A stretch of DNA of 64,000 nucleotides, taken from positions 1 through 64,000 of the forward strand of contig NZ_AZDV01000009.1 in the NCBI RefSeq assembly GCF_001434835.1. Reading direction: 5' to 3'. The notes beneath the pieces are model-generated. The model had not been told where the DNA came from. It worked only from the letters and a program-made list of their open reading frames with translations, and did no database searches. Below, piece by piece: positions 7,427 through 55,529 of the stretch; the stretch's first letter is position 1; each line of letters starts with the position of its first letter. Source of the stretch: Levilactobacillus acidifarinae DSM 19394 = JCM 15949. Lineage in GTDB: Bacteria; Bacillota; Bacilli; Lactobacillales; Lactobacillaceae. The position numbers were made by a program, and so were the translations under genes.

Positions 7427-7438
7427 GTCTACTATCTC

Positions 7439-8900: not shown

Positions 8901-8934
8901 ATTCCAACTAAAACGACGTGTATCTAAACTAAGC

Positions 8935-10698: not shown

Positions 10699-10844
10699 GT
10701 TAATCGCACTCCTTACCGAAATAGCGCCACGCGCCAAACAAAACTGGTTGGGCACCGAATTAAGTTTACAAGGTCATCATAGTGGTTTTGCCCCACAATT
10801 ACCAGCAGTTTTGCTTACTTTTTGTAAGTTAACGACTTCACAAC

Positions 10845-10887
10845 TCAAAAACGCCCAGCGACCGGCGTTAAGCCGCGTCACTGAGCG
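10845..10887 (-). terminator. Terminator of the metal ABC transporter operon
   Basis: On the minus strand CGCTCAGTGACGCGGC pairs with GCCGGTCGCTGGGCG and is followed by TTTTT, just after the permease gene. Confidence 0.88.
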
Positions 10888-10898
10888 CTTGGAACCGA

Positions 10899-37007: not shown

Positions 37008-37028
37008 GCTGTGACCCCCTTCATTTTG

Positions 37029-37042
37029 TGTTAGCGCTTTCA
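37029..37042 (-). promoter_or_regulatory. cre site upstream of pucR
   Basis: On the minus strand TGAAAGCGCTAACA fits the CcpA consensus TGNAARCGNWWWCA at every position. It lies 22 bases upstream of the pucR start, just after a TTGACC -35 (near 37072), and so is in position to block transcription. A small dyad ACCATATTTGGT at 37055-37066 lies between and might be a local operator. Confidence 0.8.
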
Positions 37043-37130
37043 ATTAACGATTTAACCATATTTGGTCAAAATAAACAAACTTGTTTTTTTTATGGTGCAG
37101 AACACGCAATGAAATTCTCTTAAATCTCCT

Positions 37131-37156
37131 TATAATTGGTCTTGTAAGCGTTTACA
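37131..37156 (+). promoter_or_regulatory. Promoter and cre site of the MFS transporter gene
   Basis: A TATAAT -10 (37131-37136) is followed seven bases later by TGTAAGCGTTTACA (37143-37156), a perfect cre. The site would cover the start of transcription, the usual place for CcpA repression. No good -35 is visible (AATGAA). Confidence 0.85.
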
Positions 37157-37182: not shown

Positions 37183-38439
37183 ATGGACAAAGTCACAGAA
37201 AAAACGGGCATGGCCTATTGGAAAAAAATCGTTATTCTCCTGTGCGCGGGGTGGATTACCATCTGGATCTACCGGTCAGCATTAGCACCGGTCTACCCGC
37301 AAATTCGGTCTTCATTAGGTGGCGGCGTCTCCGACACGGCCCTAGGATCGATTTCTAGTTTTTATTTCTTAGGTTACGTTATTATGCAAATTCCGGCGGG
37401 GTTCTTAGTCGATAAGATTGGGAAAAAACGGGTCCTAATCCCCGGATTTCTCTTATTCGCCGTCGCCGCTCTCGTGGTGGCTCTCTCCCACTCCATTCAA
37501 ATGATCTACGTGGGGAGTCTGCTAGCCGGGTTAGGTTGTGGGTCCTTCTACGGCTCCGCCTACTCGTTGACGGCCCAAAACATTCCGGCCGACAAGAAGA
37601 GCTTCTCCACGGCCATCGTAAACAGTGGGTCCGCCGTGGGGTCTGGACTCGGGATGATTTTATCTAGTTTCTTGGTTGCCCAGCAGGGAATGCCGTGGCA
37701 AACCATGATGTACATTGCCGTCGTCATGATTATCTGCATGGTCATCGCGTTCCAAGCCATTATTCGGAGTCACAAAGACGACGTCGCCGCCCTGGCCGCA
37801 CAACCAACGGCAGCCGAAATCAAGGCCGACACGCCCAAGGTTAAAGAAAAAGTGTCTATCGGGACCCTCTTTGCCCCGAAGATGCTGTTCTCCTACATTC
37901 TCTACTTCGCCACCTGCTACGCCTACTACATGATTGTGACCTGGCTGCCGAACTTCTTGGCCACGGAACGGGGCTTCCACGGCGCCGCCATCGGTTTTTC
38001 ATCATCCCTGGTTGCCTTTGCCTCCATTCCCGGCGCCCTTTTCTTCAGTAAGTTAGCTGATAAATACATGGCCCATAAGATCAAGTTCATCGTGATCTTA
38101 GAACTGCTCTCAGCCGCCATGTTACTCCTGACGGTGCAAGCTACCAGCGCTACCTTCCTCCTGACTGCCCTGATTCTCTACGGGTTCTTAGGCAAACTGG
38201 CGGTTGAACCCATCATCATCTCTTGGCTGGGTGAAAATGCGCCCCAAGTCGGGGTCGGCACAACCTTAGGGGTCTTCAACTTCTTCGGCATGATGTCGTC
38301 GATCATTGCACCAGCTCTGACCGGGAACATCTCCGACGCCACGGGGTCCAAGGTCTTAGGTTTCTACATCGCCATCTTGTTGCTGGTGGTTGGGACCATC
38401 CTCTTCCTCTTTGCCAACTTGAAAAAGAAACGCGCTTAA
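37183..38439 (+). CDS. Major facilitator superfamily transporter
   Basis: The 418-residue protein has 12 predicted helices and the MFS signature GFLVDKIGKKRVL in the loop after helix 2. The overall look is that of the anion/organic-acid MFS branch. The ATG follows GGAGG. It is divergent from pucR and carries a perfect cre, so it is likely part of the ureide regulon. Cargo is unknown; a dedicated permease exists at 52877-54385, so this one could move another ureide or export an end product such as oxamate. Confidence 0.88.
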   Translation: MDKVTEKTGMAYWKKIVILLCAGWITIWIYRSALAPVYPQIRSSLGGGVSDTALGSISSFYFLGYVIMQIPAGFLVDKIGKKRVLIPGFLLFAVAALVVALSHSIQMIYVGSLLAGLGCGSFYGSAYSLTAQNIPADKKSFSTAIVNSGSAVGSGLGMILSSFLVAQQGMPWQTMMYIAVVMIICMVIAFQAIIRSHKDDVAALAAQPTAAEIKADTPKVKEKVSIGTLFAPKMLFSYILYFATCYAYYMIVTWLPNFLATERGFHGAAIGFSSSLVAFASIPGALFFSKLADKYMAHKIKFIVILELLSAAMLLLTVQATSATFLLTALILYGFLGKLAVEPIIISWLGENAPQVGVGTTLGVFNFFGMMSSIIAPALTGNISDATGSKVLGFYIAILLLVVGTILFLFANLKKKRA

Positions 38440-39267: not shown

Positions 39268-39271
39268 CCCG

Positions 39272-39304
39272 GTCCCCACACGAACTTAGTCTGGGGACTT
39301 TTTT
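39272..39304 (+). terminator. Terminator after the crcB pair
   Basis: GTCCCCA / TGGGGAC with a 13-base loop is followed by TTTTTT. Confidence 0.9.
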
Positions 39305-39376
39305 CACTTAACGCCCTACTCACTGCCAGCACTCCCGTTAGCCCCCGTCACCTAGTTAGAAAGCGAGGTCCTTAGC

Positions 39377-41365: not shown

Positions 41366-42325
41366 CTAGTTCACAATGAACTTTGGTGCTTGTTGTTGGT
41401 CGACTCGAACCACGTTCTTGGCCACGATAGCCGCCATGGCATCCCGCGCTTCCACGGTCGCGTTCCCAACGTGCGGGGTCAAAATTACATTGTCGAGTTG
41501 TTTGAACCCATCGTCCACGTGCGGTTCCGCTTCGTAAACGTCTAACGCTGCACCAGCGATTTCCCCGTCCTTTAAGGCGGTTAAAAGTGCGGCCTCGTCA
41601 ATCACGGGTCCCCGTGCGGCGTTGATTAAGTAGGCGGAGGATTTCATTTGCCGGTACTCCGCAGCCCCTAACATGTGGTGGGTGGCGTCGTTCAACGGAC
41701 AATGAAGACTGATCACGTCACTTTGGGCCACTAAGTCATCCAAGGACACAAACTTAGCGCCTAATTTAGCTTCCGTGGCGGCGTCTAACTGGTTCCGCTG
41801 GGTGTAGATGATCGACATGTCGAAGGCCTTCATCCGTTTCGCCACGGCCTGGCCAATGTCGCCCAAGCCTACGATGCCCAGCGTCTTACCGGCCAATTCG
41901 TGGCCTAAGAAGAACAACGGTGCCCAGCCATCAAAGCCCTTGGTCCGCATGAGCTTATCGCCTTCAACCATCCGGTGGGCTAAGGTAATGATTAACCCGG
42001 TCGTCACTTCGGCCGTCGAAACGGTCGAGGCGCCCGGCGTATTTGTCACCGGAATGCCCTTCTCCCGGGCATACGCCGCATCAATGTTATTGAAGCCGGC
42101 ACCGTAGTTCGCAATGATCTTCAATTGCGGATCTGCATCGATCACGTCACGATCCACCTTAGTTGATAAGGGGGTAATGAGGTAATCTTTGCCGACAATT
42201 CGTTTCAACAAGTCGTCTTTCGTGATTAATCCACTGCCGGTATAAATCTCAACGTCTAATCCCGCCGTCTTTAAAATTTCCAAAGCCGATTGCGGAATCG
42301 CTGCAGTTACTAAAACACTAGTCAT
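41366..42325 (-). CDS. D-2-hydroxyacid dehydrogenase
   Basis: The 319-residue protein is a D-isomer-specific 2-hydroxyacid dehydrogenase with Rossmann motif GIVGLGDIGQAVA near residue 150 and the catalytic Arg (NAARG), Glu (YEAEP) and His (TPHVG). Members reduce glyoxylate, hydroxypyruvate or other 2-oxoacids. It is the last gene before the terminator, 63 bases after the alcohol dehydrogenase. Because no glyoxylate-producing ureidoglycolate lyase is present, its substrate is open; it might act as an electron sink. A weak cre-like TGATAGCGCTTTTA lies upstream. Confidence 0.88.
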   Translation of the reverse strand: MTSVLVTAAIPQSALEILKTAGLDVEIYTGSGLITKDDLLKRIVGKDYLITPLSTKVDRDVIDADPQLKIIANYGAGFNNIDAAYAREKGIPVTNTPGASTVSTAEVTTGLIITLAHRMVEGDKLMRTKGFDGWAPLFFLGHELAGKTLGIVGLGDIGQAVAKRMKAFDMSIIYTQRNQLDAATEAKLGAKFVSLDDLVAQSDVISLHCPLNDATHHMLGAAEYRQMKSSAYLINAARGPVIDEAALLTALKDGEIAGAALDVYEAEPHVDDGFKQLDNVILTPHVGNATVEARDAMAAIVAKNVVRVDQQQAPKFIVN

Positions 42326-42388
42326 GAAATGTCACTCCTTCTACAATTTTCAGATCATTCCGTTGGTTCTTCTTTAATGATAGCGCTT

Positions 42389-43147
42389 TTATTGGGCGGT
42401 GTAACCACCATCCACCACAAATTCGGATCCGGTGGCGAATTTCGCTTCATTAGAGGCTAAGTAAACACAGATGTAGGCAATATCGTTCGGTTCCCCGATG
42501 TGGCCCATTGGCGTCTTGGTCCGCGCAGACATCGCGGCTTCGGCCCCTGGTAAATCATCGACTAACGGCGTCTTGATGTAACCCGGGTGCACGGTGTTGA
42601 CCCGCACGTCGTAGTCCTTTAAGGCACAATCTAAGGCTGCCGACTTGGACATGATCCGCACGGCCCCCTTGGTCGCGTTGTAAGCGCCCAGGTTCGGATC
42701 GCCCACAAAACCTTCGATCGACGACATGTTGATGATGGAGGCGCCCAGGTGTTTGTTCTTCATCCGTTGAATCCCTAAGCGCGTGCCGTAGAAGACCCCG
42801 TCCAGGTTTACGGCCAATTGTTGCTTCCATTCGGCGGTCGTGGTGTTTTCGATACTCTTGTTCACGGCCATCCCCGCGTTGTTCACGATCGTTGTGACCG
42901 GTCCGAAGGCCTTTTCCGTGGCGTCAAATAACTTGAGCCAACCGTCTTCGTCCGTCGCATCGTGTTGGAAGAACTGAATTACGTCGGGACCCCCAACGCT
43001 CTTAGCGGCCTTTTCCCCGACGTCGGCGTGCCGACCCGTGATCATGACTTTGGCCCCTTCGGCCACGAATTTATCCGCAACGGCTAAGCCGATTCCTAAG
43101 GTACCGCCCGTGACGATGGCGACCTTTCCTGCTAAACGATCTGTCAT
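42389..43147 (-). CDS. R-specific alcohol dehydrogenase-like SDR
   Basis: The 252-residue short-chain dehydrogenase is, from memory, very close to the NADP-dependent R-specific alcohol dehydrogenase of Lactobacillus brevis/kefir. It shares GGTLGIGLA, TGRHADVGEKAAKSVG, NNAG, the Ser-Tyr-Lys triad (NMSSIEG, YNATK) and the terminal GGYTAQ with the Mg-binding C-terminal Gln. That enzyme reduces bulky ketones; its natural substrate is unclear. A TTGGAGG site precedes the ATG. It lies 65 bases after carbamate kinase in the same direction with no terminator, so it is probably co-expressed with the ureide genes. Confidence 0.9.
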   Translation of the reverse strand: MTDRLAGKVAIVTGGTLGIGLAVADKFVAEGAKVMITGRHADVGEKAAKSVGGPDVIQFFQHDATDEDGWLKLFDATEKAFGPVTTIVNNAGMAVNKSIENTTTAEWKQQLAVNLDGVFYGTRLGIQRMKNKHLGASIINMSSIEGFVGDPNLGAYNATKGAVRIMSKSAALDCALKDYDVRVNTVHPGYIKTPLVDDLPGAEAAMSARTKTPMGHIGEPNDIAYICVYLASNEAKFATGSEFVVDGGYTAQ

Positions 43148-43212
43148 TTTCTCGTACCTCCAATGATTTTTTAAAATTCGCTACCCATTCCCAATCAATC
43201 TTTCAGTGTTGA

Positions 43213-44154
43213 TTAAGTATAGCTAATTCGAGTGCCCGCCTTGCCCTGCAACGCGAGATCCGCTTCTTCTAGTGAGCAAATGATGGCCGTTCGCCCGGTT
43301 TTGGCGAACTCAATGCCGGCCTCAATCTTCGGCCCCATACTCCCCGCGGCAAATTGCCCTTCATCCAGGTACCGTTGGGCTTCTTTGACACAAACCTCTT
43401 CCAATTTCTGTTGATCGGGTTGGCCGTAGTTAATGTATACGTTGCTGACGTCCGTCAAGATCACCAGGATCTCGGCATTCACCTGTTCCGCTAATTTACG
43501 ACCCGTGCGATCCTTATCAATCACCGCTTCTAGGCCGCGGAGGTACCCGTCTTCAGTTTTGTAAACCGGGATGCCCCCACCACCGCCCGCGATGACGATG
43601 ATGTTTTGTTCGAGTAAGTGATTAATGGCGTCAATACCGTGGATCAGTAAGGGCATCGGGGAAGGCACGACGCGCCGGTAGCCGCGGCCACCGTCTTCGA
43701 CCATGTCCCACCCCTTCGTCGCCTTAAGTTCCTTGGCTTCGGCTTCCGTGTAGAAGACCCCCACCGGTTTCGTCGGGTGGTCGAACGCGGGATCGTGTCG
43801 ATCCACTTCGACTTCCGTGACCAGGGTGGCCACGTTAGCTGAGGACTGATTCTTCCGTAAGGTATTCTTCAGCGCTTGTTCTAACATATAGCCAATGAAG
43901 CCCTGTGATTCACCGTTACAAGCATCTAACGGTAGTGGTGGGACCACCTGCTTGGCCATGTCATTTTGCTGTAAGATATTACCGACCTGTGGCCCGTTAC
44001 CGTGGGTCAAAACGATTTCATAATCCATCGCTTCGATCTTAGCAATCTGTTCGGCACTCTTTTTCACGTTTTCCATTTGTGTTTCAAAACTCGGTTCCTG
44101 TTTGGGTTGCAGAATCGCGTTACCGCCAACTGCAATGACCACTCGTTTGGCCAT
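43213..44154 (-). CDS. arcC: Carbamate kinase (catabolic)
   Basis: The 313-residue enzyme converts carbamoyl phosphate and ADP to ATP, NH3 and CO2. Motifs: VVIAVGGNAILQP at the N-terminus, LTHGNGPQVG near 49, and the IAGGGGGIPV loop near 206. There is no arginine deiminase gene nearby; it lies 15 bases after the DUF2877 gene. Its role here should be that of AllK/YbcF, conserving energy from carbamoyl phosphate released by the AllFGH enzyme. It follows an AAGGGGGG site. Confidence 0.95.
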   Translation of the reverse strand: MAKRVVIAVGGNAILQPKQEPSFETQMENVKKSAEQIAKIEAMDYEIVLTHGNGPQVGNILQQNDMAKQVVPPLPLDACNGESQGFIGYMLEQALKNTLRKNQSSANVATLVTEVEVDRHDPAFDHPTKPVGVFYTEAEAKELKATKGWDMVEDGGRGYRRVVPSPMPLLIHGIDAINHLLEQNIIVIAGGGGGIPVYKTEDGYLRGLEAVIDKDRTGRKLAEQVNAEILVILTDVSNVYINYGQPDQQKLEEVCVKEAQRYLDEGQFAAGSMGPKIEAGIEFAKTGRTAIICSLEEADLALQGKAGTRISYT

Positions 44155-44169
44155 TTGGAGACCCCCCTT

Positions 44170-45015
44170 TCAATGTTGTGGGTTAAACGCTAGTGCGGAC
44201 ATGATGCCCGCCAAGCAATCGATTCCCGACGTATTGCCGTAATGAATGACTGCCGCCAGCAGCGCGGTCACCGGTTGGGTGACGGGCGCGCCTTGTAAGT
44301 ACGCCATCAAAGCTAATAACGCACTGCTAAACTTGTGCTGCAAACCGTAAGCCAAGTAACTCCGGCCCACCGCGGTCGTGTAACGTTCCGATTGAATCCG
44401 ACAGGCAATGGCGTCTCGAAGCCGCTGATCTTGCGTGGTTAAGTCGGCGACCAACAACCAGCCCAGGAGAAAATCATCGCCGGAAGGGGTCAAGCCCCGG
44501 CCCCGGCCGATGAAGAAGTCCACGCCCCACTGCACCGTGACCGGGGTGGTCAACCACAGCAGTTCCTTAGGATAAGGCGTCGTGGCCAGGTCGAGGAACT
44601 GTCGAAACGGGTGATCGAACCCCGTCAGTTGCATGACTTGACCACAGGCAGTTTGCAGGGTTTGAATCCGTTGAGCCACCAGTGGTGCTGGGTCTAACGT
44701 CGCGTTAAACGTTGCCGTTAAGTTAAGCGACCACCGGGTCTGGTACGTATCCAAGTAAAACGTCCGTTGTCGAAACGTAATTCGTTGCACGTCGCGAATC
44801 TGTCGGTGTAACGCGGTAAATTCCGCTGGAGGAAGGTAGAGTCCACCTGGTAACAGCTTGGTGCGATCACCAGTCACAATCACCAGGGTGGTCTGCTGTT
44901 GATTTGTTAAATTAAAGGTATGTTCAAAGACACTATGAACATACCAAGTTCCTTCCTCTAGCGTTAGAAAATCTTGGTCGCCGTAAACGGCAACGTTATG
45001 CTGGCTGCGTAACAA
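44170..45015 (-). CDS. allH: DUF2877 protein, AllH (YlbF) component of oxamate carbamoyltransferase
   Basis: The 281-residue protein is a DUF2877 member with the hallmark GRGRGLTPSGDDFLLGW near residue 165. In Escherichia coli, AllH acts with AllF and AllG as a three-component enzyme that converts oxalurate and phosphate to oxamate and carbamoyl phosphate. A TTG at 45013-45015 overlapping the allG stop by 20 bases is the only plausible start, behind an AGG-containing stretch. The overlap supports coupled translation with allG. Confidence 0.87.
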   Translation of the reverse strand: MLRSQHNVAVYGDQDFLTLEEGTWYVHSVFEHTFNLTNQQQTTLVIVTGDRTKLLPGGLYLPPAEFTALHRQIRDVQRITFRQRTFYLDTYQTRWSLNLTATFNATLDPAPLVAQRIQTLQTACGQVMQLTGFDHPFRQFLDLATTPYPKELLWLTTPVTVQWGVDFFIGRGRGLTPSGDDFLLGWLLVADLTTQDQRLRDAIACRIQSERYTTAVGRSYLAYGLQHKFSSALLALMAYLQGAPVTQPVTALLAAVIHYGNTSGIDCLAGIMSALAFNPQH

Positions 45016-46267
45016 ACCCTAGCTTCTTGGCGTAGGCTAAGACCGCCTTTTCGAAGCAGGCCATCGGTGGATTAACAGTCCCTGCCCCAATCTGTCCTAG
45101 TCCCGCTTTCTTGTTCGCAATCCCGGTGTTGATTACCGGTAAAATGCCGGTTTCAACCACTTTACGGGCATCGATCCCGATGGAGATTCCCCGGAAGTCC
45201 CAGGTTGGGATGGGGAAGTTCGGGTTAGCGGCCGTGGTAATTTCGGTCATGTCCTCACTGGTATGCAGGGCATCGAAGAACCCACCCGTCCCCACGAACC
45301 GGGTAACGGCAGGGGCGGCGATCATGGCAAAGCCCCCGACCCCAAAGGTTTCGGTAATGGCACTATCCCCCATGTCCGGCGAGGCGTCGTCTTCGGAGAA
45401 TCCGGAGAAGTACAGCCCCTTCGGCGTGTTTACGGGACCGGTAAACCATTCGTCCCCCATGCCGGCGATCCGAATACCAAATTCATACCCGTTCCGGCAC
45501 ATGGCCGTCACGATGGTACCTTCTTGAATCTGCCGGGCGCCATCCATGACGGCCTTCGCGGAGGCCATCATGATGTTTAAGAAAAATTGATCCGTATCCG
45601 CGAGAAACTGGATCACGTCTTGTTTTTCCTGTTGGTCGATGTCTAAGCTGACAATGCTGGGCGCCATTTCCTTCAAGAAGGCTAACGACGCGGCAATGTT
45701 GCGTTGGTGGAATTCATCCCCCATGGCCACCGCTTTGGCAATTAAAACGTTTACATTCAACGGTTCGCGAATCTGTAACGCTTTGCTCAGAGTTGGGCCT
45801 AAGACGTCACGCATCCACCGTAACCGGTTGATGACTTCCGGACCGTTGGCACCGAACCGCAGCACGGCCCCAATCCCTTCGTTCATGGTGCAGTAAGCGC
45901 GGTTCCCGTCCGTGCGGTTTTCCACGATCACAACGGGCATGTGCGCGGAGGTAATCCCGCCCATCGGGCCCACGGCGTCCACATGGTGACACGGAATCAG
46001 CGTCACTTCACCGCTTTCCATCAGCCGGCGGGCGTCGTCTTCGTTAGCGGCCCAGCCTTCGAATAGGGCGGCGCCAATGCAGGCCCCCTGCACCGGATCA
46101 ATCATGTGATCGTAGGTGATGGGTGGTCCCGCGTGTAGTAAGACCTTACCGTGTTTGAATTCATCAATCACGTCCATTGCCGGAACAACGTCTAAGAGGA
46201 ATGGTGAACCGGCGATAATTTTAGAAACGACGGCTTGGTTCGCCTCGTCAATCGTTTTATAAGCCAT
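44996..46267 (-). CDS. allG: DUF1116 protein, AllG (YlbE) component of oxamate carbamoyltransferase
   Basis: The 423-residue protein is a full-length DUF1116 member (AYKTIDEANQAVVSKII start; GMGDEWFTGPVNTP near 275). With AllF and AllH it forms the oxalurate-phosphorolysing enzyme described in Escherichia coli. The ATG lies three bases after the allF stop, and its GGAGG is inside the allF coding end, so the two are tightly coupled. The cytosolic role is inferred from family and context. Confidence 0.9.
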   Translation of the reverse strand: MAYKTIDEANQAVVSKIIAGSPFLLDVVPAMDVIDEFKHGKVLLHAGPPITYDHMIDPVQGACIGAALFEGWAANEDDARRLMESGEVTLIPCHHVDAVGPMGGITSAHMPVVIVENRTDGNRAYCTMNEGIGAVLRFGANGPEVINRLRWMRDVLGPTLSKALQIREPLNVNVLIAKAVAMGDEFHQRNIAASLAFLKEMAPSIVSLDIDQQEKQDVIQFLADTDQFFLNIMMASAKAVMDGARQIQEGTIVTAMCRNGYEFGIRIAGMGDEWFTGPVNTPKGLYFSGFSEDDASPDMGDSAITETFGVGGFAMIAAPAVTRFVGTGGFFDALHTSEDMTEITTAANPNFPIPTWDFRGISIGIDARKVVETGILPVINTGIANKKAGLGQIGAGTVNPPMACFEKAVLAYAKKLGFVTQPA

Positions 46268-46270
46268 TCA

Positions 46271-48037
46271 TTACACCTCCATTGGTTGTTCTAATGAGAC
46301 CTTGTTTAAGAACAGCAGGGCCCTTTGCAACTCGACGTTCCCACCAGCAATCGGGTGCCAATCGAATTGAATGGCGTGGCCCCCGTTTTCGTTAATGGCG
46401 TCGGCGAAACTATCTAACCCAACGTTGATAAAGTCCGTCACGTCCAGGAGTTTCCGCATGGTGTCCGTCACCACGGGCATCGTCACGTGAGAAGCCTGTT
46501 CTGGTAACACGGCTAACGGTTGTTCGTCGATCGATTGTCCCACAATGGCCAGCGCCGTCTTCACGGCCTGGGCGTTGTTCTGGCACAGAATCACTCCGGC
46601 GTCCGTCAACGTCTTCTGTTGTTGGGCGTAGTCTTGCGGGTCGATATCCGTGCCAACGATGGTCCCAATCACGGGCAATTGTCGACCCTGAGCACGCGCG
46701 TCACTGATAACCTTCTTAATGGCCCCTTCTAATTCACCGGCCATGTTATCGTGCGCTCCGTACCCCAACACGATGTCGATCAGAATGGCGGCCGTTTCCG
46801 GGTCATTCCCCGCTTCAACCATCATTTCCTTACGCTTCGTCGCGTCGATCATCGGGTGCGGCCGTCCCTGCGTAAAGACGTCGTCGCCTAAATCAATGAC
46901 TTCGTAACCGTCTTGCTTCAGGATGTAACCGTCGACCCCGTTTTCGGCGTGCAGGTCTAACGCGTCGTTCATCAGTGTGGCTGCTTCGTAAGCTAACGTC
47001 CCACCGGAGTAGTACCCCTTGATGTACTTTTGTTGGGGTTCCAATTGAACGTCCGGCACCGTCAACGGCGCTTCGTCGATCTGCGGTCCCTTCCCGTTCA
47101 ACAAGTTCACGGCAATCTTCGCCGTTTCTTCTAGCGTGTACGCCCGGTAGAGACCCTCTTCGTGGGCTTCTGGCTTTTCGCCCAAGAAGATAGCCACCAC
47201 GGGTTTGTGGGCGGCCCGTAACAGGTCAACCACGTCATCGCGAACTTCCTTTGCCGGCGGCTTGGAGATCGCCACGATCACCTTAACGCTATCGTCTTGA
47301 TCTAACAGCGCGATGCCGTCCTTAAAGGTCGTGCCCTGAACCGCGGCCTTTAAATCCCGGCCCCCGGTCCCGATGGCGTTGGTCACGCCCGCACCCAACT
47401 TATGGATGATGGTCGTCACTTCTTGAATCCCGGTCCCAGAAGCCCCGACGATGCCGATACCGCCCTTGCGCACGCGGTTGGCGAAGGCTAACGGTAACCC
47501 GTTCGCAATCCCCGTTCCACAGTCTGGTCCCATCAGCAGCAGGCCCTTTTCGTGTGCCAGCTTCTTTAGCCGGGCTTCGTCTTCAATCGTCACGTTATCA
47601 CTGAAGCAAAAGACGTGTTTGCCCGCATCCAACGCTTTTTCAACTTCGTTAGCGGCGTAGACCCCCGGTACCGAAATCAGGGCCACGGGTGCGTCCTTGC
47701 CCAGCTCTAACGCCTTATCCCAGGTCTTGACGCGTTCGTTGCCCGCGTCTTCGTCGTTGCCTTTACCCTGTTCGTCCAGGTAGACCTGAGCCTTCTCCAT
47801 CAGATCATCAATTTGATCCGCATCGTCCACGTCCAGGACAATCACCATGTCGTTAGGCGTCGCGTCCTCTAATTCTGTGGTCGCTAAGCCCCCCGTCTTG
47901 AAGATGTCCTTGTTAGCAGGCGTGCCCATCATGACCTGAACGTTGTTGACGCCGTCTAAAGTTTCTAGATAGTTCGTCAGCAGCATGAGGACGATGGAGT
48001 CCTGATAACTGTTTTTTTCAATAATCGTATGCAGCAT
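46271..48037 (-). CDS. allF: FdrA/AllF, acyl-CoA-synthetase-like component of oxamate carbamoyltransferase
   Basis: The 588-residue protein belongs to the FdrA family, related to succinyl-CoA synthetase alpha: a CoA-binding-like N-terminal part (about 1-300; GPDCGTGIANG near 178, VGASGTGIQEVTTI near 205) and a ligase-like C-terminal part with DIVLGYGAHDN near 423. It belongs with AllG and AllH encoded next. The FdrA label has older links to suppression of FtsH; the present context supports oxalurate metabolism. The ribosome site (GAGAG) is weaker than its neighbours'. Confidence 0.9.
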   Translation of the reverse strand: MLHTIIEKNSYQDSIVLMLLTNYLETLDGVNNVQVMMGTPANKDIFKTGGLATTELEDATPNDMVIVLDVDDADQIDDLMEKAQVYLDEQGKGNDEDAGNERVKTWDKALELGKDAPVALISVPGVYAANEVEKALDAGKHVFCFSDNVTIEDEARLKKLAHEKGLLLMGPDCGTGIANGLPLAFANRVRKGGIGIVGASGTGIQEVTTIIHKLGAGVTNAIGTGGRDLKAAVQGTTFKDGIALLDQDDSVKVIVAISKPPAKEVRDDVVDLLRAAHKPVVAIFLGEKPEAHEEGLYRAYTLEETAKIAVNLLNGKGPQIDEAPLTVPDVQLEPQQKYIKGYYSGGTLAYEAATLMNDALDLHAENGVDGYILKQDGYEVIDLGDDVFTQGRPHPMIDATKRKEMMVEAGNDPETAAILIDIVLGYGAHDNMAGELEGAIKKVISDARAQGRQLPVIGTIVGTDIDPQDYAQQQKTLTDAGVILCQNNAQAVKTALAIVGQSIDEQPLAVLPEQASHVTMPVVTDTMRKLLDVTDFINVGLDSFADAINENGGHAIQFDWHPIAGGNVELQRALLFLNKVSLEQPMEV

Positions 48038-48065
48038 TTAGTGATCAACTCTCTTTCGAAAAAAT

Positions 48066-49130
48066 TTATTCGGCGAAAGCGCCTTGACCATCGTACTTAT
48101 CGAAGTGCACCGTGTCGCTCTTCAGATAGTCGTAAATTTCGGTCGCCACTTCAATTCCGTTCGCCATAGCCTCTTTCCGTCGAATCTGGCTCCGTTCACC
48201 TGGCAGGTAAACCTGGTCAAACCCTTTAGCCGGTGGCATCTGGTGGAGTTCTTCGGTCATCTGTTGAACCCGTTCCTTGAAGGCCTTAAGGTCGGTAAAC
48301 TTCTTCGGATCCATCAAGATGTAGAATTGACCGAGGTTCCGTTTTTGCGTCAAGTCGGCGTACATCGAGGAGACGTGCTTCCCGAATGGTAAGCCCAACA
48401 TGGAGCCGGCCATAACATCGACTAACATCATCAACCCGTAACCCTTAGGCCCGGCAATCGGTAACAGGCCCCGGACCGCGTGAGGATTGGTGGTTGGGTT
48501 CCCGTCGCCGTCAACGGCCCAGGTATCCGGAATGGCGCGATCCTTAGACCGGGCATCGAGGACTTTCCCCCAGGCTTGAACCGTGGTGGCCATATCGAAG
48601 ACCAAGGCTTCACCACTGGACCGGGGAGCGGAAAACGCAATCGGGTTAGTCCCGAAGTAGTTTTCACTGCCCCCAAACGGGACTACCATTGGATCGGATT
48701 GGCACATTGCCAACGCCACTAGATTTTCTTCGGCCGCCCGTTTCACGTAGTAGGACAGCATCCCACTGTGACCGGTCTTTTCCACGCCGACCGCGGCTAA
48801 ACCGGTATCTTTAGCCATCTCAATCGCGTAGTCTAACCCGCGGTTGCAGACGTACTGGCCCATCCCGTTATCTCCGTGCACGATCCCGGTCGAGGTCCCC
48901 GTCTTTTCAAACGTAATCTGGGGATCTAAATTGACGCCGCCCTTGGCGATTCGTTCGGCGTAGTAGGCCACCCGCACCGTCCCGTGGGAGTGAATTCCAC
49001 AAGCGTCCGCATAGGTTAAGTGCCGGGCCGTTTCTTCGGCGTGTTCTTTCTTCAGTCCCGCCGCAATAAACTTGTTCATCATTAAGTCTTGTAATTCTTG
49101 CGCATCTACTAAGGTAACTCCGTCTGCCAT
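48066..49130 (-). CDS. allD: Ureidoglycolate dehydrogenase AllD
   Basis: The 354-residue protein belongs to the malate/L-lactate dehydrogenase (Ldh_2) family and has AllD length. It would oxidise ureidoglycolate to oxalurate with NAD+. Visible family features are ACGIHSHGTVRV near residue 46, GHSGMLSYYVKRA near 118 and GPKGYGLMMLVDVM near 230. The ATG at 49128-49130 follows TGGAGGG; a TTG five codons earlier lies in that site. It starts 24 bases after allE and leads into allF. Confidence 0.9.
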   Translation of the reverse strand: MADGVTLVDAQELQDLMMNKFIAAGLKKEHAEETARHLTYADACGIHSHGTVRVAYYAERIAKGGVNLDPQITFEKTGTSTGIVHGDNGMGQYVCNRGLDYAIEMAKDTGLAAVGVEKTGHSGMLSYYVKRAAEENLVALAMCQSDPMVVPFGGSENYFGTNPIAFSAPRSSGEALVFDMATTVQAWGKVLDARSKDRAIPDTWAVDGDGNPTTNPHAVRGLLPIAGPKGYGLMMLVDVMAGSMLGLPFGKHVSSMYADLTQKRNLGQFYILMDPKKFTDLKAFKERVQQMTEELHQMPPAKGFDQVYLPGERSQIRRKEAMANGIEVATEIYDYLKSDTVHFDKYDGQGAFAE

Positions 49131-49154
49131 CGTATTTCCCTCCAAGCGGTTGGT

Positions 49155-49940
49155 TTAGATTTCTGGGTCGCGGTTCGCATCCTTCGAGTAAACGTAAGCC
49201 AGTGGTTCGTCGCGGCCAACGGCGTAAGCGGCTTGTGGTGAGTAGGAACCCATGTAGAGGTAATCGCCCTTTTCAACGGGGTACCAGCCGTTATCCAGGT
49301 TGTACATCCCTTCACCGCTGATCAGGTAAGCGCCGTGTTCTTGGTAATGCGTTTCGATGTAAGCGTGGCTAGCCCCTGGTTCGAAGGACAGGATGTGCAT
49401 GTTCATGTCGAAGCCCAAGTCATCGGTTGGTAAGAAGTCCCACAGTAAGACGTCGGTCATGCCTTCGTACGGTACCGGCTTGTGGTCGTGAATGTTACCC
49501 ACGATCTTGTAAGCCTTGTGACCGGCTAATGGTTGGTAACGCTTCTTGTACAGGAAGACTTCGGTTGGCTCGTCTTGGGCGTTTTCCATCTTCATGATGA
49601 CGCTTTCAGGGAAGTAAGCGTAACCGCCGGCTTCCAGCACGTTGTCTTCTTGGCCGTCGGAAACTTTCAGCTTCCCACTGACCACGTAAGCGACCGTTTC
49701 GATGCCTTCGCCACCAAAGCCGGTGTGCTTGCCACCCTTTTGGAAGGACGCAATGTAGTCAACGAAGTGCGCGCCCAACCGTGGCGTGCCCATGATGGAA
49801 ACGTCCACGTTTTCAAAACCAGGAACCGTGTTCTTCACTAAGCCGTCGTGGGGAATCAACGCAAAGTTGCCTTGCTTAACCACTGACCGTGACCCTAATA
49901 ACGTTTTTTGGTAACCAGTACGATTGTTTTTGTAACCCAT
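49155..49940 (-). CDS. allE: (S)-ureidoglycine aminohydrolase AllE
   Basis: The 261-residue bicupin releases ammonia from (S)-ureidoglycine to give ureidoglycolate, using manganese. Typical AllE features are the start [14 protein letters not shown] and two cupin halves (about 70-120 and 190-245; [15 protein letters not shown] near 205 supplies metal ligands). It lies between allC and allD, matching the pathway order. It has a GGGAGTC site before the ATG, and a partial cre (TGTAAACGCTACTT) in the 40-base gap upstream. Confidence 0.94.
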
Positions 49941-49980
49941 TTTAAAGACTCCCTTTTTTAGTTGAATGTGTGTGTAAACG

Positions 49981-51204
49981 CTACTTGTAAGCTAATTCGT
50001 ATAACGTATCGGCCATTAACTTCACGCCTTCGACCAGGTCTTCAAACTTGGTATTTTCGGCGGGGTTGTGACTAATGCCCCCGATACTTGGGACGAAGAT
50101 CATGGCCGTTGGGTAAACCGGCGCGATAATTTGTGAATCGTGCCCCGCGCCACTGTGCATCACGCGGTACTTGTACTTGCCAGCTTTGGCCTTGTCTTCG
50201 ATGGTCTTGACGATCTGGTCACTCATTGGTACGGGCTTTTCGTCCATCCATAAGTCGATCGAAATGTCTAAGCCCATTTCCGCAGCAACCTGCGTCATCA
50301 TATCCGTAATTTCTTTGGTAAATTGAACTAAGTATTCGGCGTCCGTGTGCCGGCAATCCATGGTGAAGAGGACTTCCCCCGGAACCACGTTTACGGTGTT
50401 AGGCTTCGGCACCACTTTCCCGAAGGTCAGAACCAATGGGTCGCCAACCTGATGGGCCTTATCCAAGGCGTTGTTGATCATCTTGGCCATGCCGTAAACC
50501 GCATCGTGCCGGTAGCTTAACGGCGTGGTTCCCGCGTGGTTAGCTTCACCCTTCAACACGATGTCGTAGCGCCGTTGACCAGCAATGCTGTTCACAATCC
50601 CGATCTGTTCGTGTTCTTGTTCCAGGATGCTGCCTTGTTCGATATGTTCTTCCACGAAGGCCTTGATGTCGTCGCGCCGCGTCTGCTTAGGGCTAAAATC
50701 GAAGCCCTGGCGCCGCATCTCGTCCACAAACTTCTTGCCGTCGGCGTCCGTCGCATCCTGCACTTCGTCGTTGTTGGCCACGCCCACGAAGTTCTTGCTG
50801 CCCCAGAAGGCGAACGGAAACCGACTGCCTTCTTCTTCGGCCATCGAAATGACTTCTAAGGAACGCTTAGGTTGGCCGTACTTGGCAACCAAGTATTCTG
50901 CCGCCGTCAACGACGCACAAACCCCAAACTGACCGTCGAGCTTCCCACCGTTGACCACCGTGTCAATGTGCGAACCAGTCATGATGGTTTCATCCGGATT
51001 TTCAGCGCCTTCGATGCGGCCGAATAAATTCCCCACGTCGTCAAACGTCGTGGTCATCCCGAAGGATTCCATCTGTTGTTTGACGTACTTCTGGGCTTCC
51101 AACCACGAATCCGTGTACAATAACCGGGTCATCCCACCAGTGGGATCACTCCCGATTGAAGAAACTGCTTTAAGTCGTTCATCAAGTTTCGTTGCGAGTT
51201 CCAT
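49981..51204 (-). CDS. allC: Allantoate amidohydrolase AllC
   Basis: The 407-residue M20-family metallohydrolase converts allantoate to ureidoglycine, CO2 and ammonia. Metal-site motifs are [16 protein letters not shown] (about 76-91), [10 protein letters not shown] near 125 and HSGAGHDSQ near 352, all typical of AllC/N-carbamoyl amidase enzymes. It begins a second transcription unit, with a cre at 51242-51255 and a GAAGGAGG site. N-carbamoyl-amino-acid hydrolase is the alternative by fold, excluded by context. Confidence 0.93.
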
Positions 51205-51241
51205 TGTTCCGAACCTCCTTCATACTTTGTTACAACCCAAT

Positions 51242-51255
51242 TGTATGCGCTTTCA
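51242..51255 (-). promoter_or_regulatory. cre site upstream of allC
   Basis: On the minus strand TGAAAGCGCATACA, flanked by A on both sides, meets the extended cre consensus WTGNAARCGNWWWCAW fully. It lies 38 bases upstream of the allC start, where it could block the promoter of the allC-allE-allD-allFGH-arcC unit. Confidence 0.8.
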
Positions 51256-51377
51256 TAATTGCTATCATTGGACGCTTTAGCCAAAGATAATCCTTTTTTT
51301 GTCCACTATAACCTATACTGAATTAGATTAGAGGAGTCAGCGTTTCCGGCTAATCAATCATCATTTTAATGATTCCA

Positions 51378-51400
51378 TGTACAGCCTGGAGGCGACCTAT
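51378..51400 (+). repeat. Short repeat B, copy 3
   Basis: TGTACAGCCTGGAGGCGACC matches 23223-23240 and 8875-8893. It sits between allC and allB beside the allB terminator. No gene is present in 51205-51484. Confidence 0.65.
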
Positions 51401-51424
51401 TTTAGCGCGTATTCTTCCCCAACT

Positions 51425-51460
51425 AAAAGGTGCTTGGCGGTCACCCACCAAGCACCCTTC
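51425..51460 (-). terminator. Terminator of the permease-allB unit
   Basis: On the minus strand GGTGCTTGGTGG pairs with CCGCCAAGCACC and is followed by TTTTAG. It splits the ureide cluster into two transcription units. Confidence 0.82.
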
Positions 51461-51484
51461 GACTGTATTAATTGGTTAATCAGA

Positions 51485-52873
51485 TTATTCGGTCACGGCC
51501 GTTTGGGCCCCAGCTTTTTCGATAAATTGGCCAGGGAAGCCACTCACAACCCCTTGGTCCTGGCTGTAGATCGTTTGCCCCCGTAAGATGGTCTGGGCCA
51601 CTTGGGCGCCAATCTGACGGCCAATGTATGGGCTGATTTGGTTACGGTATTCCAAGTCTTCGGCCTTCAGCGTGTACGGTGCGTTGGGCTTGATCAACAC
51701 GAAGTCCGCGTCTTTACCGACACTGATGCGACCCTTTTGGTCCAGGTTGTACCGGTCGGCCGGATTAGCCGCGATAATTTCAGCAAAGTGCTTCAACGAC
51801 ATCCCCCGCTTTTGAACGGCTTCGTCGTACATCACGTCCACGTCGTTTTGCACGCCCGGAATTCCCCCCCAGGCTTCAAACGCGTTATCCGTGTCCTTTA
51901 AGTCCGGCGTACATGGGGAATGGTCGGACGTCACGAAACTAATCGCGCCGGCTTCGACCCGGTCCCACAGCGCGTCTTTTTGCGCTTGTTCCCGGATTGG
52001 TGGGGAACACTTAACCACTGGTCCAATGGCGTCCAATTCATCCTTGGTAAAGTACAGGTAGTGAACACAGGTTTCACAGGTAACGTCCACACCCTCGGCT
52101 CTCGCCTTGATGACTTCGTCGACACCTTCCTTGCAGGCCACGTGACAAATGTGAATCCGGCAACCCGTTTGCTTGGCCATGAAGATGGCCTTCTTGATGG
52201 CCATGACTTCGGTAAAGGCCGGTCGGGTATCCACGTAGTCCGCTAAGGTCGTCTTCCCCTCGGCCTTGGCAATCTCGCCTAAGCGGTCGGTAATCGCGGC
52301 ATCTTCGGCGTGAATCGCTAAGACTTTCCCGGTCTTGGCAATCTGCTTCATCCCTTCGTACAGGGAGTAGTCGTCGACGTTTTCAAAGTCCCCGTCGATG
52401 GACCGATCCCCACAAGTGGCTAAGAAACACTTGTAGCCGGCAACACCACCGTCGTCCAGTTCTTGAATGCCCCCCTTTAAGTTGGTGGGCACCAAGCCCC
52501 CGAACGAGGCCACGTCGACCTTTAACTCGTCCTTATGGGAATACTTTTCTTCCAGGGTCTTGCCGTCAACCGTTGCCGGAACCTGGTTTAATGGCATTTC
52601 CATGAAGGACGTGACCCCACCTTTGGCACAAGCGGCCGTCCCGGTGACGTATCCTTCCCATTGATCCCGGTAGCCGCCACCCATTGGTGTGATGTGCACG
52701 TGGGCGTCCACCATGCCGGGACTCACAACGAGACCTTGGGCATCGATAACCCGCTGACCATCCAAGTTCTCGCCGATGGCCGTAATCTTACCACCATCTA
52801 CGGCAACGTCCGTGTTGACCCCACCGTCTTCGAGAATCACTAACCCATTTTTAATGACTAATTCATGACTCAT
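51485..52873 (-). CDS. allB: Allantoinase AllB
   Basis: The 462-residue cyclic amidohydrolase opens the hydantoin ring of allantoin to allantoate. It has the metal motif VDAHVHITP near residue 60, the carbamylated-Lys site GYKCFLATCGD near 148 and the conserved VTSDHSPCTP near 313. Length is slightly above the usual ~450. It lies three bases after the permease gene. Dihydropyrimidinase is a relative, but neighbours make allantoinase clear. Confidence 0.94.
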   Translation of the reverse strand: MSHELVIKNGLVILEDGGVNTDVAVDGGKITAIGENLDGQRVIDAQGLVVSPGMVDAHVHITPMGGGYRDQWEGYVTGTAACAKGGVTSFMEMPLNQVPATVDGKTLEEKYSHKDELKVDVASFGGLVPTNLKGGIQELDDGGVAGYKCFLATCGDRSIDGDFENVDDYSLYEGMKQIAKTGKVLAIHAEDAAITDRLGEIAKAEGKTTLADYVDTRPAFTEVMAIKKAIFMAKQTGCRIHICHVACKEGVDEVIKARAEGVDVTCETCVHYLYFTKDELDAIGPVVKCSPPIREQAQKDALWDRVEAGAISFVTSDHSPCTPDLKDTDNAFEAWGGIPGVQNDVDVMYDEAVQKRGMSLKHFAEIIAANPADRYNLDQKGRISVGKDADFVLIKPNAPYTLKAEDLEYRNQISPYIGRQIGAQVAQTILRGQTIYSQDQGVVSGFPGQFIEKAGAQTAVTE

Positions 52874-52876
52874 GTC

Positions 52877-54385
52877 TTATTCCTCCTTTATTTCTTGGTT
52901 TACATTCTGGTCGATTGGGGCTACGTCGCGTTTGGCCACGAGCCACTTGAGACCCAGATAAATCAGAAATGCCGAGATAAATCCAACAAACCATGATAAA
53001 TCAGACACGACTTTCAGACCGGAAATAAATTGACCGCTCAGCGATAACAGCAAGGCTAAAATGGTCGCAATGTAGGCCGATTTATTCACACCGTGATATA
53101 AAACGTCTTTGTCCTTGTTCAAATCCATGTAAAGCTCATCTAAATTTTCGTGTCGCTTATGAATAAAGAAGTAGTTGGCAATCATCACCCCAGCAACCGG
53201 TCCTAAGACCGCCCCGATACCGTTCAAGAAAATAAAAATACTATCAGAATTTTCCATTAATTTCCAGGGCATAATCAGGAAACTGATGAGACTGGCAATG
53301 ATGACCCCACTTCGATAAGTCAGGTGTTTCGGGAACAACGCCGTTAACTGGTACCCGGCGGGAATAATGTTCCCCGTGGCATTCGTTGAGATTGTCGTTA
53401 GTAAGAAAACCGCCATTGAAATAATAATTGCGGGAAAGCTGTCCCACCGCTCAACAATATTTAAAACGTTCCATTCTTGGATGTTATAGTGAATCGACCC
53501 ACCGATTAAGATAACAACACTAGAAAACGCGAAGATTAAGTACCCTACCGACAATCCTAAGGTCTGCCCGACGACTTGCGCCTTGGTGGACTTGGCATTT
53601 TGCGTAAAATCCGCAATACTCGTCCCCGGCGCCGCCCACACGGCAATCACTGAGTTAAAAATAATGAAGTAGACCAACAACGGGTTCACATGAGTCGTGG
53701 CGGTAATGTGATACGCCAGGATCGGACCTAAGCCACCGGCCCCCCAGATTGCCCAAATTGCCATCCCCCCAAAAACCACGTAGATGAGTGGACTGAGAAT
53801 AGCGGTAAACTTGTTTAGAATATCGCCACCCCCGAAACCGACTAACACGTTTAAAATCCAGAAAATCGTAAACGAAATTAAGCCGGGGATGCTAATCCCC
53901 AAAATTTTGGTCGAGCCACCAATTTGGAGAAACCCGGGCCAGATCTTGCCCAGCATAATCAGCAAAGCCAAAGATCCGGTATAGGTTTGAAGGCCAAACC
54001 ACGCGATTGCGGCAACGCAACCCCGCAGAAAGCCTGGTAGCTTCGCCCCGAGATTTCCATAGGCTGAACGAAGATGCATGGCGAAGGGGATGCCGTACTT
54101 GGAGCCCACGATTCCGTTACAAGCCATGAAGGCTGAGACGAAAAAGGCACTCAAGAAGATGGCGAGCATCACGTTAAGGGGCGATAACCCCAGAAACAGA
54201 AAGCCCCCGACTGCCGCGTAATTGGGAATGTTATGGATGGAGCCCATCCACAACGTAAAGAAATTACCGGTACCCATGTTCCGCTTTTCTTTGGTCTTGG
54301 GTAACAAATCCTCGTTATACCCGCGGGCTTTAAAAACCGCAACTTGTTGTTCGGTGATGTTTTCATACTGGTCGTCCGTTTTCAC
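52877..54385 (-). CDS. NCS1-family allantoin permease
   Basis: The 502-residue protein has about 12 membrane helices and belongs to the nucleobase:cation symporter-1 family (MGTGNFFTLWMGSIHNIPNY near the start, then GLSPLNVMLAIFLSAF). Members import allantoin, cytosine, uracil, hydantoins or thiamine. Coupling to allB strongly suggests allantoin, as for PucI of Bacillus subtilis or AllP of enterobacteria. It is the first gene of its unit; upstream is a near-consensus cre (54559-54572). Confidence 0.9.
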   Translation of the reverse strand: MKTDDQYENITEQQVAVFKARGYNEDLLPKTKEKRNMGTGNFFTLWMGSIHNIPNYAAVGGFLFLGLSPLNVMLAIFLSAFFVSAFMACNGIVGSKYGIPFAMHLRSAYGNLGAKLPGFLRGCVAAIAWFGLQTYTGSLALLIMLGKIWPGFLQIGGSTKILGISIPGLISFTIFWILNVLVGFGGGDILNKFTAILSPLIYVVFGGMAIWAIWGAGGLGPILAYHITATTHVNPLLVYFIIFNSVIAVWAAPGTSIADFTQNAKSTKAQVVGQTLGLSVGYLIFAFSSVVILIGGSIHYNIQEWNVLNIVERWDSFPAIIISMAVFLLTTISTNATGNIIPAGYQLTALFPKHLTYRSGVIIASLISFLIMPWKLMENSDSIFIFLNGIGAVLGPVAGVMIANYFFIHKRHENLDELYMDLNKDKDVLYHGVNKSAYIATILALLLSLSGQFISGLKVVSDLSWFVGFISAFLIYLGLKWLVAKRDVAPIDQNVNQEIKEE

Positions 54386-54686
54386 CGCGAAACCCCCTTA
54401 GTACATTTAAAACTCACCTTCATTACAGGAAGATCTCGATAAATAGCCTGACCGACTAACTCAAATGCAACCGTCCGCGCGAACTAAACTTCATTTGATC
54501 ATAATCTGATAACCGTTAGTTTCATTCAATTAAACTTGTGCTATTTACCAGTTCCAATTGTAAGCGGTTTCTTTTTGCGGGGCATTGTCCACTTTGACCA
54601 GAAAAAAATTTGCTTTTGTCATTTTAAAAAATTCTGATTTGCTAAAATGTAAGCGTATACACTTAAAGGAAGGAGTGCTCGTTACC
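54386..54686. promoter_or_regulatory. Divergent promoter region with two cre-like sites
   Basis: The 301-base gap between the divergent permease and esterase genes contains no other gene. TGTAAGCGGTTTCT at 54559-54572 misses the cre consensus at the last base only. TGTAAGCGTATACA at 54648-54661 fits it fully and lies 25 bases before the esterase start. Both genes are thus probably under CcpA. Confidence 0.72.
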
Positions 54687-55529
54687 ATGGAAGCGCAAAT
54701 TATTTCATTGAATCACCACGCCAACGTCTCGCTTAAAGCGACCCACTACGAAAGTCCCCGCCCGCTAAAGGGAACCATTCTGTACCTTCACGGTGGGGGG
54801 CTAGAATTCGGCCAACGTGACGATCTGCCCCGGCCCTACCTCCAACAATTCGTGGACGCCGGTTACCAGGTCATCACGCTCGATTACTTACTGGCACCCG
54901 AAAGTAAACTGGACGTCATTTTAGCTGTCCTTAAGGAAAGTATCGCCACGTTACAAACCAAGCTCACCCTAACCAGCAACCTCTACTTGATGGGACGTTC
55001 CGCCGGCGCCTATCTGGGTTACCTGCTCCTGCGAGATGGTCTGCCTGCCCACGCCTTTCTCGATCTCTACGGGTATGCCGGGCTCAACCACCCCGAGTTC
55101 CGCCGGCCGGCCGAGTTCTACACCGCCTTTCCCGCGGTCCCGCCCATGCAGGCTCAAGCCCTGGTACAAGACCAACCGTTGGTCACGGGCGCCCTCAAGG
55201 ACCGTTACCCCCTCTACGTTTCCAGTCGTCAATTTGGCACCTGGTTAAGTCAGATTCTGCCCAGTATCCGTGATGCGGACCAGTATTCACTGACCACCGC
55301 CGAACTGGCGCAGTTGCCGCCCACCCTGTCGTTCCATAGTCGTCACGATCCCGATATCCCGTTTGCCGCCGCTCAACTCGCCACGCAAGCCATTCCCGCG
55401 GCCCAGCTCATCCCCGTTGCGGGCCACGAGCACGACTTCGACCGCACCGTGACCCCGACGACCCAGGCGTACTATCAAACCATGATTGACTTCTTGGCGG
55501 ACCCGCAAGCCCAAGCATTGGTCTCCTAA
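54687..55529 (+). CDS. Alpha/beta hydrolase (esterase/lipase family)
   Basis: The 280-residue protein has the HSL-like oxyanion motif LYLHGGGLEFG near residue 35, the nucleophile GRSAGAYLG near 98, a late Asp (HDPDIPF) and the His of GHEHDF near 252. It is cytosolic, with no signal peptide. The ATG at 54687-54689 follows AAGGAAGGAG; a longer in-frame extension would include the cre. It diverges from the allantoin permease and carries a perfect cre, but a role in ureide metabolism is not evident. Confidence 0.85.
   Translation: MEAQIISLNHHANVSLKATHYESPRPLKGTILYLHGGGLEFGQRDDLPRPYLQQFVDAGYQVITLDYLLAPESKLDVILAVLKESIATLQTKLTLTSNLYLMGRSAGAYLGYLLLRDGLPAHAFLDLYGYAGLNHPEFRRPAEFYTAFPAVPPMQAQALVQDQPLVTGALKDRYPLYVSSRQFGTWLSQILPSIRDADQYSLTTAELAQLPPTLSFHSRHDPDIPFAAAQLATQAIPAAQLIPVAGHEHDFDRTVTPTTQAYYQTMIDFLADPQAQALVS

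Follow-up and report, generated by a model that had tools for sequence, protein, structure and literature searches.

Can a lactic acid bacterium ferment allantoin to oxamate and recover energy on the way? This question is raised by a 64,000-nt stretch of DNA from Levilactobacillus acidifarinae DSM 19394 = JCM 15949 (contig NZ_AZDV01000009.1, positions 1-64,000, assembly GCF_001434835.1), in the following called the window. On its minus strand, from 54385 down to 43213, the genes for a permease, AllB, AllC, AllE, AllD, AllF, AllG, AllH and a carbamate kinase follow each other in that order (Table 1). A preliminary description of this DNA had named this head-to-tail series, and both genes and coordinates proved right, with each protein scoring above its curated cut-off. 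It is very likely that this is a PucR-controlled, probably CcpA-repressed locus for the fermentation of external allantoin to oxamate.

Gene content and predicted chemistry

The family assignments were made with NCBIfam models for seven of the nine proteins (permease, AllB, AllC, AllE, AllD, AllF and the kinase), whose bit scores were compared with the curated cut-offs; AllG and AllH matched no NCBIfam model and lie above the Pfam cut-offs instead. In alignments covering most of their length, the proteins are 53% (AllB), 57% (AllC), 55% (AllE), 53% (AllD), 39% (AllF, 578 columns), 58% (AllG) and, as the weakest case, 28% (AllH) identical to those of Escherichia coli. Hence AllB, AllC, AllE and AllD equivalogs, the three AllFGH subunits and a linked catabolic carbamate kinase, which are the genes that an oxamate branch requires, are all in place. 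The gene set is genuine, because chance does not produce such an ordered series. The same set is found in Levilactobacillus, Lentilactobacillus and Enterococcus. The span of 41366-54385 that had been given for the locus contains the correct gene set, but it also covers two dehydrogenase genes (41366-42325 and 42389-43147) that had not been named. Likewise, the core was placed correctly, but the locus extends past both ends and includes pucR, a gene for a transporter of the major facilitator superfamily (MFS) and one for an alpha/beta hydrolase.

The chemistry of the pathway is carried over from E. coli, and we infer that the flux would take the same course. The permease would bring in allantoin, the ring of which would be opened by AllB to give allantoate. 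AllC would convert allantoate to ureidoglycine with the release of ammonia and CO2, and AllE would form ureidoglycolate from ureidoglycine, releasing a further ammonia. The formation of oxalurate by AllD would yield NADH, and AllFGH would then use phosphate to split oxalurate into oxamate and carbamoyl phosphate, from which the carbamate kinase would generate ATP, ammonia and CO2. Oxamate would finally exit the cell, most likely via the MFS transporter. For the same branch in E. coli, excerpts of PMC12535856 give three ammonia, one oxamate and one ATP per allantoin, and the kinase step and this balance are also found in excerpts of PMC9843812. According to the consulted part of PMC11326118, the loss of allF or allG in E. 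coli abolished oxamate formation, the loss of allH lowered it from 17.7 to 1.2 mM, and a triple mutant regained wild-type oxamate once all three genes were supplied. By analogy, oxamate and carbamoyl phosphate are the predicted products of AllFGH in Levilactobacillus acidifarinae. The earlier expectation that allantoin gives NADH, one ATP, oxamate and ammonia gains support in the same way, as the locus encodes relatives of characterised enzymes for all of the steps and the E. coli balance agrees (PMC12535856, as excerpted).

The preliminary description had seen neither AllA nor urease at the locus and had regarded an allA elsewhere as a finding that would speak against it. The genome comprises 2.92 Mb on 30 contigs, with 100% completeness and 1.14% contamination. 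AllA (PF04115) was not found in the whole 2.92-Mb genome by a search that matched the E. coli control, and the urease alpha subunit was not found in it either, with control matches in 4 of 14 genomes, so that both absences extend from the locus to the genome. The superfamily of HpxW, which we take to be the gamma-glutamyltranspeptidase-type family PF01019, was not found in the genome, with control matches in 8 of 14 genomes, and uricase was not found there by a search that matched at least one control genome. Allantoin would therefore be taken up from others, and ureidoglycolate seems to have a single exit, to oxalurate.

Among known systems, the ALL cluster of E. coli (allB, allECD, allFGHK) encodes the same seven enzymes and a catabolic carbamate kinase. 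It differs by the presence of AllA, the glycerate branch and AllS/AllR/ArcA control (PMC12535856, in excerpts), whereas L. acidifarinae has PucR and additionally the MFS transporter and the alpha/beta hydrolase, and no AllA was found. Enterococcus clusters such as those of E. gilvus pCR1A (L106) and E. ureasiticus (L018) share AllC, AllE, AllD, AllF, AllG, AllH, the kinase, PucR, the MFS transporter, the hydrolase, the permease and AllB, but a PucG-like aminotransferase and a second AllD are added and the gene order is another one. The oxalurate system of Streptococcus faecalis, the enzyme work on which reportedly dates, to judge by its titles, from 1964-1986, is said to carry out the same reaction from oxalurate to oxamate and carbamoyl phosphate. 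The surprise is thus small, because a lactic streptococcus has long been known for this activity and the genes occur widely among Firmicutes. A literature search on allantoin in lactobacilli and enterococci, which left most subscription journals outside, had nothing on this operon among the papers listed. The locus provides a genus of lactobacilli with the genes for a complete and, as it seems, single-branch fermentation of allantoin, and those behind the activity biochemically known from lactic streptococci become testable in harmless strains. For oxamate carbamoyltransferase, the abstract of PMC11326118 states that no gene had previously been found in any strain.

Table 1. Positions in the window of the genes and cre-like sites (catabolite-response elements) of the locus; scores are in bits, followed by the cut-off where one applies.
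Feature	Position	Strand	Basis
PucR-family regulator	35358..37043	-	Pfam PucR 93, HTH_30 70
cre-like site, exact, at pucR start	37029..37042		pattern match
cre-like palindrome, exact, in pucR/MFS gap	37143..37156		pattern match
MFS transporter, divergent from pucR	37183..38439	+	copies in related loci
D-2-hydroxyacid dehydrogenase	41366..42325	-	best model PRK13243 glyoxylate reductase, 320, below cut-off 455
R-specific alcohol dehydrogenase (short-chain dehydrogenase/reductase, SDR)	42389..43147	-	NF052562 460, cut-off 400
Catabolic carbamate kinase	43213..44154	-	TIGR00746 409, cut-off 358
AllH, oxamate carbamoyltransferase subunit	44170..45015	-	PF11392 82, cut-off 25
AllG, oxamate carbamoyltransferase subunit	44996..46267	-	PF06545 332, cut-off 27
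AllF (FdrA), oxamate carbamoyltransferase subunit	46271..48037	-	NF004760 678, cut-off 433
AllD, ureidoglycolate dehydrogenase	48066..49145	-	TIGR03175 584, cut-off 496
AllE, (S)-ureidoglycine aminohydrolase	49155..49940	-	TIGR03214 326, cut-off 200
AllC, allantoate deiminase	49981..51204	-	TIGR03176 689, cut-off 598
cre-like site, 1 mismatch, AllB-AllC gap	51242..51255		pattern match; recurs in Levilactobacillus-type loci and Lentilactobacillus rapi
AllB, allantoinase	51485..52873	-	PRK08044 730, cut-off 688; also TIGR03178
NCS1 allantoin permease	52877..54385	-	PRK11375 792, cut-off 620
cre-like site, 1 mismatch, upstream of permease	54559..54572		pattern match; recurs in Levilactobacillus-type loci and Lentilactobacillus rapi
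cre-like site, 1 mismatch	54648..54661		upstream of hydrolase if that gene starts at 54687
Alpha/beta hydrolase, facing permease	54585..55529 (open frame)	+	start probably ATG at 54687, where the profile match begins

Regulation and the use of the pathway

The PucR-family regulator is likely to control the locus. Its relatives lie beside all genes at 57-76% identity in the Levilactobacillus, Lentilactobacillus and Enterococcus alishanensis loci, with more distant ones in other Enterococcus loci, and in Lentilactobacillus rapi and many Enterococcus loci the all genes have relatives of PucR, the MFS transporter and the alpha/beta hydrolase in their company. For carbon control, the window was searched with the pattern TGWAANCGNTNWCA, which we take to be the cre consensus; the sites are consensus matches only, and palindromes were counted on both strands. 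Three exact matches were found at two sites where 0.16 matches are expected, and if one mismatch is tolerated the count rises to 19 matches, distributed over 12 sites, against 4.5 matches expected; none of 100 shuffles reached 19. Half of these 12 sites are near promoters: one at the pucR start, one between pucR and the MFS gene, and one each ahead of the genes for the hydroxyacid dehydrogenase, AllC, the permease and the hydrolase. Those of AllC and the permease lie at similar positions in the Levilactobacillus-type loci compared and in Lentilactobacillus rapi. In the comparison of many loci, a site within 250 bp upstream was found for 19 of 31 permease, 19 of 44 MFS and 1 of 5 AllF genes, and for 21 of 77 AllC genes, where each locus was represented by its first AllC-like gene, a distant paralogue in some of the staphylococcal loci; mononucleotide shuffles expect 0.3, 0.6, 0.1 and 1.3, respectively. 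A comparison of the promoters for shared 11-mers gave nothing useful beyond the cre-like sites. As CcpA is encoded in the genome, above its cut-off, the cre-like sites fit an energy-linked, glucose-repressed use of allantoin, and the locus is probably subject to repression by CcpA. Because AllB and AllC are separated by 280 bp that contain a cre-like site, permease-allB and allC-arcC may be transcribed separately. Where an Enterococcus locus shows both AllB and AllC, further genes intervene between the two.

Several points weigh against such a glucose-repressed fermentation to oxamate. Three of the 12 cre-like sites lie inside operon genes (44007, 45742, 49595) and three far off (8500, 13641, 19422), and in the four Enterococcus loci compared (L007, L013, L015, L018) no site was found ahead of AllC, with the same result for the permease of L013 and the MFS gene of L007. 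Among the proteins, the identity of AllH to its E. coli counterpart is just 28%, the kinase is nearer to YahI (46%) than to AllK of E. coli (43%), with 50% to the kinase of an E. faecalis cluster with fused AllF-AllG, and AllF is about equally near to YahF (41% over 497 columns) and, in the longer alignment of 578 columns, to AllF (39%). No assay of a cloned firmicute AllFGH was found in the literature consulted on the pathway. Lactate dehydrogenase is classically inhibited by oxamate, so that a lactic acid bacterium producing it would be at a disadvantage without export. A PucG-type aminotransferase was not found in the genome by a search without positive control, and another way into oxalurate is therefore only probably absent.

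It may also be asked whether the locus chiefly serves nitrogen supply, with carbamoyl phosphate being directed to pyrimidines and arginine and ATP formation as a side effect. Indeed, deletion of the kinase gene in E. coli barely altered allantoin use, for which the authors invoke a biosynthetic use of carbamoyl phosphate (PMC9843812, in excerpts). However, the kinase gene directly follows allFGH, and the cre-like sites indicate carbon rather than nitrogen control, so that we think this use is unlikely to be the main one, even if it deserves to be kept in mind.

The alpha/beta hydrolase

That the fate of oxamate is not encoded at the locus, as the preliminary description held, is too strong a statement, because two conserved genes, one for the MFS transporter and one for a hydrolase of unassigned substrate, belong to it. 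The hydrolase has about 280 residues and contains HGGG and GxSxG motifs. In 43 aligned members, S139, D255, D257 and H283 are invariant, as is arginine 215, with arginine 207 being near-invariant, and these two arginines could hold a carboxylate. Its structure model is confident (predicted local distance difference test, pLDDT, 91.9). The best structural matches are 3h04 from Staphylococcus aureus and 2qru from Enterococcus faecalis, both without assigned function, and carboxylesterases come next. In an E. faecalis record, a hydrolase nearly identical to 2qru is encoded next to a fused AllFG gene.

In the family and class searches for the hydrolase, at most six candidates were scored per genome, on which the absences rest. 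Among 397 Lactobacillaceae, a profile built from 27 members detects it in all 15 AllG-containing genomes, and at the limit of 1e-20 the other 382 gave just four weak partial matches with E about 1e-21 to 1e-22 (Fisher p 7e-24 with these four counted). Some profile members come from the same 397 genomes; scores may be inflated by this, but it does not account for the absences. Two of the genomes, both with AllG, show irregular copies, with an internal stop within the match in G199 and pieces at contig ends with stops in G372. Among 398 genomes of the class, both proteins occur in 20, the hydrolase alone in 5, AllG alone in 20 and neither in 353, and wherever both occur the hydrolase is 2-10 kb from AllG (20 of 20). 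Of the 20 genomes with AllG alone, 12 share a genus (g70), and their AllG frames have 482-593 residues. No hydrolase is found in the E. coli allFGHK stretch examined. The link between hydrolase and AllG is thus strong but not strict, and the hydrolase is not needed for AllFGH in general. At the level of loci, 76 of the 92 read, which include likely repeats (L101/L006 and L104/L003, each pair with equally long contigs; L045 and L051 overlap on one contig), hold a frame of the family, one of these being a fragment of 102 residues (L016). Among the 16 others, five end near the expected place (L030, L034, L101, L103, L104) and L039 matches in a DNA search. All 11 named Staphylococcus loci have the hydrolase. 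A literature search on fdrA, hydrolase, allantoin and PucR had nothing on the hydrolase among the matches listed.

We tentatively suggest, with somewhat less than even confidence, that Lactobacillales and Staphylococcus have in this hydrolase a dedicated component of oxalurate/oxamate metabolism that has escaped recognition. It would hydrolyse a small carboxylate, for example oxamate, oxalurate or a cyclic ureide, to a further product or to the inducer of PucR. If true, the solved structure 2qru, and perhaps also 3h04, would thereby receive a function. As a protein that tracks AllFGH and has relatives of solved structure, it is a concrete and cheap target for a missing function. A more specific proposal is that it finishes the pathway by converting oxamate to oxalate and ammonia, which would make oxamate an intermediate and recover all four nitrogens. 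The constant company of AllG in Lactobacillaceae, the proximity of both genes in the class, and the conserved nucleophile, acids and histidine, together with arginines 215 and 207 as possible carboxylate holders, are in line with this. Nevertheless, we consider it rather improbable, as there is no hydrolase gene beside allFGHK in the E. coli stretch, as oxamate is termed a dead end in E. coli (PMC9843812 and PMC12535856, both in excerpts), as the closest folds of known function are carboxylesterases and not amidases, and as 20 of the 40 AllG genomes of the class have no hydrolase match.

The transporter and neighboring genes

With oxamate as the end product, which is the reading preferred here, its export is the simplest role for the MFS transporter, which may instead be an uptake carrier for ureides. 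With the best four candidates scored per genome, copies at 82-100% identity were found in exactly 7 of the 397 Lactobacillaceae genomes, which are those with separate AllF and AllG; the gene is on another contig in G305 and in two pieces in G372. Copies at 35-41% occur in 15 other genomes, five of which have a fused AllF-AllG and the MFS gene inside the cluster, and the remaining three genomes with fused AllF-AllG gave no MFS match at 1e-60. In Listeria and Vagococcus loci, relatives at 56-59% sit between AllC and AllE.

The two dehydrogenases downstream of the kinase gene were considered as pathway enzymes and set aside. The SDR protein is probably not a pathway step, as it fits the model of an R-specific alcohol dehydrogenase; a copy is located near the fused-type cluster L096. 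The D-2-hydroxyacid dehydrogenase is below its family cut-off and has close neighbors only in Levilactobacillus-type loci, with adjacent copies at 83-84% there and none in Lentilactobacillus rapi. Counter to its dismissal, three staphylococcal loci (L070, L073, L079) have 53% relatives past the kinase gene on the opposite strand, Trichococcus and some further loci have more distant ones (31-38%), and a cre-like site is located upstream; the enzyme may act as an NADH sink. The interval that separates the MFS gene from the end of the all operon in the window (38537-41227) contains two small genes and one for a heavy-metal P-type ATPase, and the second small gene weakly resembles a CrcB fluoride channel, below the cut-off.

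Distribution and clusters with fused AllF-AllG

AllG relatives are encoded in 415 stretches of the genome collection, of which the best 80 were kept and read. Among these, the nearest named relatives by AllG (94-95%) are Levilactobacillus tujiorum, L. parabrevis, L. hammesii and Lactobacillus sp. HBUAS51381. AllG was found in 15 of 397 Lactobacillaceae genomes, in seven as a separate protein (one frame has just 323 residues) and in eight fused to AllF, and in 40 of 398 genomes of the class, which makes the pathway genes patchy yet common. Horizontal gain was set aside as an explanation, although the AllG tree nests the five split-type Lactobacillaceae sequences used for it among Enterococcus, which hints at transfer.

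In the second type of cluster (L093-L100 in Lactobacillaceae, L105 in E. faecalis), AllF and AllG form a single frame, in most cases of about 1000-1050 residues; the frames of the eight Lactobacillaceae genomes have 1017-1192 residues, with domains displayed for one. In one locus, L097, the AllF-AllG region (7064-11106) reads as two overlapping frames of 505 and 844 residues, and the gene may be disrupted. All eight Lactobacillaceae loci contain fused AllFG, PucR and the hydrolase, seven contain AllH and the kinase (not L098 at the threshold used), and six an amidohydrolase and a DUF1097 protein (not L094 and L098). The E. faecalis record has fused AllF-AllG, an AllD and two amidohydrolases, but its 20.6 kb displayed include neither AllB nor AllC. 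The layout of the eight loci resembles yahC-yahJ of E. coli, but their DUF1097 protein did not match YahC, and their amidohydrolase shares just 25% identity with YahJ. Their AllG part has 60-62% identity to AllG of E. coli against 40-41% to YahG; the AllF part, with 38-39% to AllF and 39-42% to YahF, favors neither. We read the fused-type clusters as probable oxalurate pathways fed by another ureide, which agrees with the reported oxalurate work on S. faecalis.

It is very improbable that the substrate of AllFGH of the window itself is a different ureide and not oxalurate, as may be the case for the E. coli paralogues YahEFG: the families include paralogues, yahEFG neighbors kinase-like and amidohydrolase genes, the kinase comparison given above points that way, and AllF is about as near to YahF as to AllF, but AllG is nearer to E. 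coli AllG (58%) than to YahG (46%), AllH is nearer to AllH (28%) than to YahE (23%), and the genes follow those for the oxalurate-producing AllB, AllC, AllE and AllD. The two E. coli proteins, AllG and YahG, have long branches at open forks of the AllG tree.

Two consecutive AllD genes, at about 54-68% identity to AllD of the window, occur in clusters of Enterococcus, Listeria, Mammaliicoccus and Staphylococcus (L018-L025, L032-L037, L047, L049, L057, L058). In E. gilvus, the cluster from AllC to AllB is located on pCR1A, a 919-kb replicon recorded as a plasmid, and the pathway can therefore reside on large secondary replicons. In the plasmid search, the matches listed comprised two enterococcal replicons and otherwise mostly enterobacterial ones.

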